Source of the DNA: Thiomargarita sp.
Lineage (GTDB): Bacteria; Pseudomonadota; Gammaproteobacteria; Beggiatoales; Beggiatoaceae
DNA length: 43,105 nt
Assembly (NCBI GenBank): GCA_020720115.1
Contig: DYPD01000021.1
Location: forward strand, 1 to 43,105
Direction of reading: 5' to 3'
The notes beneath the pieces are model-generated. The model saw only the letters and a program-made list of their open reading frames with translations, made no database searches and had not been told where the DNA came from. Both the position numbers and the translations under genes were made by a program. Shown piece by piece: positions 1,171 through 3,972 of the stretch. The stretch's first letter is position 1; each line of letters opens with the position of its first letter.

Positions 1171-3972
1171 TTAACTTACTACGATATTGACCAATTTGCC
1201 CGCCACTACAATCACTTTGCGCACGGTTTTGTCGGCGGTGAATTTCAACACCTGTTCATGACTCAATGCCGCTTGTTCAATCGCTGCGTTGCTGGCATCC
1301 GCCGCGACTTGCAGTTTCGCCCGCGTTTTGCCGTTGATTTGCACCACCAGTTCAAGGGTGCTTTTCACCAGCGCGGTTTCATCCACGCGGGGCCAGGGTT
1401 GGTCAATGACTAAGCCCGTGTGTCCTAGTGCTTCCCACAATGCTTGACAAATGTGCGGCACAATCGGCGACAGCATCAGGGTTACGGCTGCAAAGCCTTC
1501 ACGCGAAATGGCGCGGGCTGCTGGTGTGTCTGGTGCGCGTTGTAAGCGGTTGAGCAGTTCCATGCAGGCGGCAATCGCGGTGTTGAAGGTGTAACGCCGT
1601 CCGATGTCGTCGCTGACTTTTTTGATGGTTTCATGTACTGCACGGCGTAGGTCTTTGTCGGCTTCGGTGAGCGCGGACGCTGAGCTTGTCGAAGCGAGCG
1701 AAGTCAACGCATGAACTTGTGTCCACAAACGGCGCAAAAAGCGCGACGCGCCTTCGACTCCGCTGTCTGACCATTCCAGCGATTGTTCGGGCGGCGCAGC
1801 GAACATCATGAACAGGCGCACTGTGTCTGCGCCGTAGCGGTCAATCATCACTTGCGGGTCAACGCCGTTGTTTTTCGATTTGGACATTTTCTCGACGTTG
1901 CCGATCTGTACGGGTTGTCCGTCAGCGATGAGTTTTGCTCGGATGGCTCGCCCCTTTGCTTGTGCTGAGCTTGTCGAAGCATCGTCCAGTTCGGTTTCCA
2001 CATCAGCCGGATTGAACCAAATTTTGCCGCCGTTGGCTTCTTCGCGGTAGTAGGTTTCGGCGATCACCATGCCTTGCGTGAGCAAGCGGGTGAAGGGTTC
2101 GTCGCCTTGCACCAAGCCTTCGTCGCGCAGCAATTTGTGGAAAAACCGCGCATAGAGGAGGTGCAAAATCGCGTGTTCGATGCCGCCGATGTATTGATTC
2201 ACTGGCAACCAGTAATGCGCCCGTGCATCCAGCATGGTGTCCGCGTCGGGGCAGGCGTAGCGGGCGTAATACCAAGAGGATTCCATGAAGGTGTCGAAGG
2301 TATCGGTTTCGCGCAGCGCTCTGCCGTCACACAGGCGGGAGGTGGTTTGATAAAAGTCGGGCGAGGTTTTTAAGCAAGAAGTCGCACCGTCGGGAACAAC
2401 GTCTTCGGGCAGTTTAACGGGTAATTCGTCGCTGGGGACGGGGTGAGTCTCGCCGTTTTCGCAGGTCAAGGTCGGAATCGGGCAGCCCCAGTAGCGTTGG
2501 CGCGAAATGCCCCAATCGCGCAAGCGGTAATTGACGCGGCGTTGTCCCGCGTGGTTTTTGCCTAAGTAGTCGGCGATGGCATCGAAGGCTTGTTGAAAAT
2601 CCAAGCCGTCAAAATCGCCTGAGTTGATCAATGTGCCTTTTTCCGTCATGGCTTCGGTTAAACCGCCTTCGGCGGTTGTGCCAGTCTGGAGACTGGCGCT
2701 CCCAGCGACAATCACTTGTTTGACAGGCAAGCCGTATTTTTGCGCAAATTCAAAATCGCGCTGATCGTGCGCGGGAACAGACATGACCGCGCCGCTGCCG
2801 TAGCCCATCAACACAAAATTCGCCACCCACACCGGCACCGCTTCGCCCGTGACGGGATGCAAGGCGGTCAAGCCCGTGTCCATGCCGCGTTTTTCCATCG
2901 TTTCCATATCGGCTTCGGCAGTGCTACTGACTTTGCAGCTTTGGATAAATGCGGCTAAATCGGCATTATGTTCAGCCGCTTGCGTTGCCAAGGGATGCTC
3001 GGCGGCTATCGCCAAATAGGTCACGCCCATCAAGGTATCGGGGCGCGTGGTGAAGACGGTTAAAGGAACAAACGAAGCAGATGACTCATTCACTTCGACA
3101 AGCTCAGTGAACGAATTGACAAGCTCATTCACTTCGACAAGCTCAGTGAACGAATTGACAAGCTCAGTCACTTCGACAAGCTCAGTGAACGCGCCATCGG
3201 CTTCGTCTGTTCCAGCCGTTGCGGACGCTGAGCTTGTCGAAGCGTCCGCAACGGCTGGAACCTCAACCAGAAACTGAATTTCCAGCCCTTCCGAGCGCCC
3301 AATCCAGTTGCGCTGCATGGTTTTCACCGCGTCGGGCCAGCCGTCCAGCGTGTCTAAACCTTGCAGCAATTCCTCAGCATAGGCGGTGATTTTCACAAAC
3401 CACTGCGGAATCTCGCGCCGCTCCACCAACGCACCGCTGCGCCAACCGCGTCCGTCAATCACCTGCTCATTTGCCAGCACCGTGTTGTCCACTGGGTCCC
3501 AATTCACCAACGCGGTTTTCTTATACACCAAGCCCTTTTCATACAAACGGGTGAAAAACCACTGCTCCCAGCGGTAGTATTCGGCTTTGCAAGTCGCAAT
3601 TTCGCGGCTCCAATCATACGCAAAACCGAGACGTTGCAACTGATTTTTCATATAGGCGATGTTTTCATACGTCCACTTGGCGGGCGGCACTTGATGCTTT
3701 AACGCCGCATTCTCAGCGGGCAGCCCAAACGCATCCCAACCCATTGGTTGTAAAACATTTTTGCCCTGCATTCTTTGATAACGCGCAATCACATCGCCAA
3801 TCGTGTAATTGCGCACATGTCCCATGTGCAGACGACCGCTGGGATAAGGAAACATAGACAGGCAATAGAATTTTTCTTTACCTGCGTCTTCTTTGACTTC
3901 AAAGGATTTTTCTGCTGCCCAACGGGTTTGTACAGTGGTTTCTATGGATTGAGGATCGTATTGCGTTTGCAT
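1171..3972 (-). CDS. leuS: Leucyl-tRNA synthetase with in-frame repeat-derived insertions
   Basis: 933 aa [53 protein letters not shown] and [13 protein letters not shown] motifs of bacterial LeuRS. Confidence 0.97.
1676..1696. repeat. GCTGAGCTTGTCGAAGC repeat copy inside leuS
   Basis: gacgctgagcttgtcgaagcg; encodes LASTSSASA on the leuS strand. Confidence 0.85.
1959..1980. repeat. GCTGAGCTTGTCGAAGC repeat copy inside leuS
   Basis: cttgtgctgagcttgtcgaagc; encodes ASTSSAQ on the leuS strand; near-identical over 22 nt (inverted) to 43059-43080. Confidence 0.85.
2661..2697. repeat. Two adjacent small palindromes inside leuS
   Basis: aaccgcc-ttc-ggcggtt (2661-2677) followed by gccagtct-gg-agactggc (2680-2697). 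Confidence 0.7.
3089..3189. repeat. 39-bp tandem repeat (two full units plus a partial third) inside leuS
   Basis: ttcacttcgacaagctcagtgaacgaattgacaagctca at 3089-3127 and 3128-3166, then gtcacttcgacaagctcagtgaa 3167-3189; encodes 13-aa [13 protein letters not shown] repeats. Confidence 0.95.
3209..3261. repeat. Perfect 21-bp inverted repeat with 11-nt gagcttgtcga loop inside leuS
   Basis: gttccagccgttgcggacgct (3209-3229) / agcgtccgcaacggctggaac (3241-3261). Confidence 0.95.

Follow-up and report, generated by a model that had tools for sequence, protein, structure and literature searches.

A 24-nt repeat with a conserved loop and a variable paired stem lies in frame within leuS and other conserved genes of a Thiomargarita genome

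The leucyl-tRNA synthetase gene (leuS) of a Thiomargarita sp. carries extra in-frame blocks built from a short dispersed repeat, which we interpret as a REP-like mobile hairpin, very short and non-autonomous. We give this reading, in which recognition and mobility are inferred and the inserted copies are tolerated passengers, none of the evidence pointing to a benefit for LeuRS, a probability of roughly 0.6. The mobile-hairpin interpretation is drawn from sites that are empty in relatives, from a clean single insertion of 24 nt and from stems that co-vary between copies. Insertions with several copies display only their final state.

The window, the whole 43,105-nt stretch of DNA analysed here, contains leuS at 1171–3972 on the minus strand. 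The ORF list, a profile match and an alignment identify it as a complete bacterial LeuRS of 933 aa, with 1145.6 bits against NCBIfam TIGR00396 (cut-off 548.4). An initial annotation of this DNA had proposed that a repeated core interrupts leuS while leaving the reading frame and catalytic motifs intact. This was borne out: the ORF is open throughout, HMGH, TTRPDT and KMSKS are all found in the product by alignment, and the exact core TCGACAAGCTC occurs six times, at 1682–1692(−), 1967–1977(−), 3095–3105(+), 3134–3144(+), 3173–3183(+) and 3230–3240(−), together with two halves that have one mismatch each, TTGACAAGCTC, at 3116 and 3155. The annotation had also raised the possibility of a second, repeat-free leuS; among the matches listed for the window’s genome (G000), only one is at the level of a LeuRS. 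Across the whole window there are ten matches to the core with at most one mismatch, against 0.69 expected, a number reached in 0 of 100 shuffles. Two variants lie outside leuS. The inverted-repeat search places TCGACACGCTC in an intergenic hairpin at 1074–1156 (stem 25), just past the leuS stop, the outer arm ending 15 bp beyond it, and this hairpin is possibly a terminator. The core search finds TCGACAGGCTC at 43062–43072(+), where the contig terminates in a longer repeat; positions 43030–43105 belong to this contig-breaking repeat, which is also present at loci L162 and L218.

We compared leuS at the DNA level with that of a congener (G001) and of three other genera (G007, G025 and G005). 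The congener gene aligns to residues 1–236 (90% identity) and 302–932 (79%), and these two matches are just 6 nt apart. An insertion of about 189 nt (63 aa) at 3061–3261(−), where the CP1 editing domain begins, has no counterpart in any of the four relatives; its boundaries are approximate because the loop sequence differs between species. It contains four exact cores and two degenerate ones. Within it, a 39-nt tandem array at 3089–3189(+), with cores at 3095, 3134 and 3173 and degenerate half-units at 3116 and 3155, reads FTELVEV, and an inverted-repeat search revealed a perfect 21-bp stem at 3209–3261 with the core in its loop (DNA fold −28.8 kcal/mol, z −10.1). The arm of this stem has no other occurrence in the 888 kb of G000 DNA examined. 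The core had been described as palindromic; it is instead a non-palindromic hairpin loop, and it is the stems on either side that are palindromic.

In the loop before KMSKS, a clean 24-nt insertion, TGCTTCGACAAGCTCAGCACAAGC, at 1958–1981(−) adds the eight residues ASTSSAQA. It corresponds to an exact 24-nt gap in the four relatives, and alignment with the solved LeuRS 6q89 leaves a gap of exactly 8 aa. The block is built as TGCT-TCGACAAGCTC-AGCA-CAAGC and sits in the context CTGGACGA[TGCTTCGACAAGCTCAGCACAAGC]AAAGGG, where no target-site duplication was seen. The leuS of G005 contains a separate 24-nt insertion, elsewhere in the gene and in a frame other than that used in G000. A further core copy, identified by core search and alignment at 1676–1696(−) in the linker that precedes the anticodon-binding domain, had been counted as a third insertion region alongside these two, yet it shows no clear net insertion relative to the congener, the linker being poorly conserved and of about equal length; from the alignment this copy looks like a replacement rather than a clear insertion, if the linker allows a call at all. 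Conversely, comparison with the relatives revealed an 18-nt insertion around 2680–2705(−) that had been missed, which belongs to another palindrome, GCCAGTCT/AGACTGGC, present as a single copy in the DNA examined.

The proposal that the core copies fall in loops or linkers agrees with an AlphaFold model of the LeuRS (mean pLDDT 79.5), in which all three regions are predicted as loops. Residues 242–298 of the CP1 insertion have pLDDT below 50 and lie between strands 226–238 and 300–308, residues 665–672 of the KMSKS-proximal insertion form the loop between strands 658–662 and 676–681, and residues about 760–766, encoded by the 1676–1696 copy, form the loop between helices 736–757 and 770–793. 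That these residues are ancestral to LeuRS and were lost in the relatives is barely credible. The initial annotation had named close homologues with identical residues as a check, and all relatives examined lack them at the two insertion sites; moreover, the loop recurs in unrelated genes, and we found no point in support of an ancestral origin.

Alignment of 124 non-redundant copies defined a unit of about 24 nt, in which a 4-bp stem (NNCT/AGNN) closes a conserved 11-nt loop, TCGACANGCTC, and is followed by a 3′ tail of about 5 nt, with variants such as ACCGG, CATCG and CAAGC; information content extends from −4 to +8 relative to the loop. Copies hardly differ at stem positions 1 and 2 (CT/AG). 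The bases at positions 3 and 4 vary but pair, at frequencies of 0.84 and 0.81 in G000, against 0.33 and 0.59 expected; at 0.88 and 0.69 in G005, against 0.32 and 0.45; and at 1.00 and 0.93 in a distant proteobacterial family (f64), against 0.48 and 0.40. The observed pairing was reached in 0 of 1000 shuffles for five of these six tests and in 3 of 1000 for the sixth, in shuffles that retain the relatedness among copies. Covariation at the stem thus agrees across three lineages, namely G000, another genus and f64, and the pairing is equally good within genes and outside. Since the isolated 24-nt unit is predicted to have no stable fold, it is this covariation that argues for a paired stem.

Some copies top stems of up to 28 bp, and the arms of these long hairpins are mostly unique elsewhere in the examined DNA. 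An Rfam search with a long hairpin returned sub-threshold microRNA models only. At L178 (3950–4070), L177, L179 and L186, homologous hairpins stand beside similar sequence with different apices, one having the core flipped and expanded. Long perfect stems with mostly unique arms are unexplained by the copying of a fixed element, and this counts against the mobile-hairpin reading. They would suit an origin without transposition, in which replication slippage and template switching make repeats and palindromes in place while gene conversion spreads the shared loop; the several periods of the tandem arrays and the homologous hairpins with different apices would suit it too. We nevertheless regard a purely local origin as unlikely, because the single clean 24-nt unit in a conserved leuS site has no flanking homology and so needs a donor copy, and because the identical loop is found at unrelated sites in distant families.

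In the genome as a whole (3.86 Mb in 185 contigs, 99.5% complete, 4.4% contamination), the 13-mer TTCGACAAGCTCA has 126 exact matches and a slightly relaxed form about 183, while the reversed control gave 0. In the 888 kb examined in detail, the 11-nt core pattern occurs 182 times. Under a rough ORF model, by which 85% of this DNA is coding, 53 of 114 clusters (about 46%) are inside ORFs; genes are under-represented among the places of insertion, yet they are not spared. Hosts recognised by Pfam include valS, metH, gyrA, purL, tex, cas10, cas6, cas4, nSTAND and PKS/NRPS proteins, as well as a methyltransferase. Whereas leuS had been singled out as the host, all seven conserved genes that we compared (leuS, valS, metH, gyrA, purL, tex and the methyltransferase) have sites that are empty in relatives. 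The core-bearing extra blocks amount to 42 and 41 aa in valS, with empty sites in the relatives; 71 aa in metH, between the homocysteine and pterin domains, where the site of the 88% identical congener is empty; and, against relatives, about 43 aa in tex, 12 aa in gyrA, 8, 20 and 24 aa in purL and 49 aa in the SAM methyltransferase. Other G000-specific insertions have no exact core (17 aa in metH, 15 aa in purL), so the repeat is not the sole source of extra residues. Further ORF matches, in pdxA and in a rhodanese gene, could be fortuitous and were left out of the insertion count.

Several host loci have features of their own. The gyrA ORF (1822 aa; L180, G000:C138, 2362–7830) contains two apparent inteins besides its repeat copy. 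At L156 (G000:C66), copies are found in the CRISPR genes cas6, cas10 and a GIY-YIG-Cas4 fusion within 20 kb. A second palindrome, GTAGGGGCAAAAAATTTTTTGCCCCTAC, with GTAG at one end, is in frame in purL (L204, 7418 and 7916) and has six copies in the DNA examined.

A draft genome of 185 contigs with 4.4% contamination, one clearly foreign contig and some contigs that end in the repeat invites the suspicion of an assembly or binning artefact. We think this highly improbable, as the copies lie in contiguous frames of genes 79–90% identical to the congener, the unit is also present in complete single-contig genomes elsewhere, and G005 independently shows an in-gene insertion.

The unit is open in five of its six reading frames, the sixth, an antisense frame, having a stop. 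The earlier description of an element open in both orientations, as ASTSSA and FTELVEV, was right as to openness and fell short in the number of frames. In ORFs of at least 200 aa, raw counts are 30 for STSSA, 25 for ELVE, 13 for FDKLS, 8 for LRQAQ, 2 for LSLSK and 0 for the stop frame. With arrays collapsed, 37 of 54 clusters are in phase 0 (STSSA or ELVE; p = 2e-5 against 2/5), ORFs being taken as the longest, so that a small number could be incorrect. Between tandem copies the spacing is divisible by three in 21 of 24 cases inside ORFs, as against 8 of 29 outside. Because its 24 nt make up exactly eight codons and just one of the six frames has a stop, an inserted unit leaves the reading frame of a gene intact and contributes eight residues, mostly hydrophilic. 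The strong codon-phase preference, and the many core genes among the hosts, could be read as a sign of adaptive peptides, serving for instance as flexible linkers or regulators, and of an element maintained by host selection. This seems to us improbable: purifying selection against hydrophobic peptides can explain the phase preference, and positions and peptides vary between genes as well as between G000 and G005.

Beyond this genome, the 15-mer CTTCGACAAGCTCAG is present in 46 of 399 sampled genomes of the phylum, with high copy numbers in three members of f64 (117, 81 and 60) and in a gammaproteobacterium (29). A scan of IMG/VR with the same 15-mer listed matches that, by rough estimate, are near chance level for so large a collection. 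Among 5.39 million papers, those whose text matches the core and its variants are, by title, unrelated to bacterial repeats, figures and closed journals lying beyond the reach of that search. G000 and G005 share, in nearly identical form, a composite element (CGTAGG..CCTACG) of about 165 bp with two cores; it was observed at L149, L154, L157, L180, L185 and L204 of the former and at L233 of the latter.

Divergent pairs of the unit are frequent in f64 genomes and a minority in G000. Such REPIN-like pairs in f64, along with the REP-like hairpin, high copy number and short tail, raise the question of a REPIN family moved by a RAYT (Pfam Y1_Tnp) that was lost or missed in G000. RAYT as the mover was tested and is disfavoured, with only a slim chance of being correct. 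The sole Y1_Tnp match of G000 is on a contaminant contig, Y1 is missing from 10 of the 11 f64 genomes that carry 6 or more copies whereas 3 of 7 element-free f64 genomes have it, the exact core is in 0 of 16 Y1 loci examined, and the GTAG tag is not in the consensus. The contig in question (L231, G000:C116), with GlmS, TerC and IspG genes, looks Bacteroidetes-derived and is an assembly contaminant.

If the unit is a mobile hairpin, as we favour, it would be copied as single-stranded DNA by an enzyme that is probably not a RAYT, and that would read the loop and need the paired stem. Slippage would probably extend the arrays, and template switching the stems, and copies would survive where the added peptide falls in a surface loop or linker in an acceptable frame.

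The Rickettsia palindromic elements (RPEs) had been proposed as the nearest precedent with a different sequence. The analogy is fair, in that RPEs too are tolerated in frame within conserved protein genes at sites empty in relatives, and an RPE-bearing guanylate kinase is translated and active (reviewed in PMC2229807). RPEs are, however, described as elements of 105–146 bp with a long stem-loop (PMC2229807), whereas the present unit is about 24 nt, has a conserved loop and a varying stem, and belongs to other Proteobacteria. A broader precedent is provided by the intragenic REPs of the GTAG and CGTC superfamilies catalogued by Di Nocera 2013 (PMC3733652), hairpins of 20–40 nt in many copies, some of them within genes including tRNA synthetases, with clusters that code for 43–82 aa. 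CGTC REPs also resemble our unit in having no associated transposase (PMC3733652). They differ in their CGTC tag, 8–9 bp stem, 4–5 nt loop and CCA-like tail, as against an untagged unit with a 4-bp variable core stem and an 11-nt conserved loop, and the unpaired GTAG end tag of the other superfamily is absent from the consensus of the 124 non-redundant copies.

The divergent pairs of f64 can form a larger hairpin, as in the REPIN/RAYT system (Bertels and Rainey 2011, PMC3116915), but no Y1 association was found and many G000 copies are single or head-to-tail. The composite element shared by G000 and G005 recalls bacterial MITEs in carrying the cores, whereas the dispersed 24-nt unit has no terminal inverted repeats beyond its stem and its leuS site no target duplication. 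The TAACTGA repeats of marine Beggiatoaceae (PMC4679880) are likewise abundant and short in the genomes of sulfur bacteria, but are a direct intergenic heptamer of other sequence. In-frame RPEs and intragenic REPs are therefore already established; what differs is the untagged 24-nt unit with a conserved loop and a variable paired stem, which appears to be a different family.

It is conceivable, and we suggest it only tentatively, that the unit represents a class of minimal mobile hairpins across Proteobacteria, with a conserved loop, a co-varying stem and a 24-nt unit of eight whole codons that has five open frames, able to colonise coding DNA and moved by an enzyme other than a Y1 transposase. 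Annotators should be aware that peptides such as STSSA, ELVE, LRQAQ and FDKLS can stem from a repeat when they turn up in proteobacterial proteins. Several essential genes at once offer clean filled and empty sites for one of the shortest dispersed repeats, which makes two questions testable: how REP-like repeats spread without a RAYT, and how much foreign peptide core enzymes tolerate.
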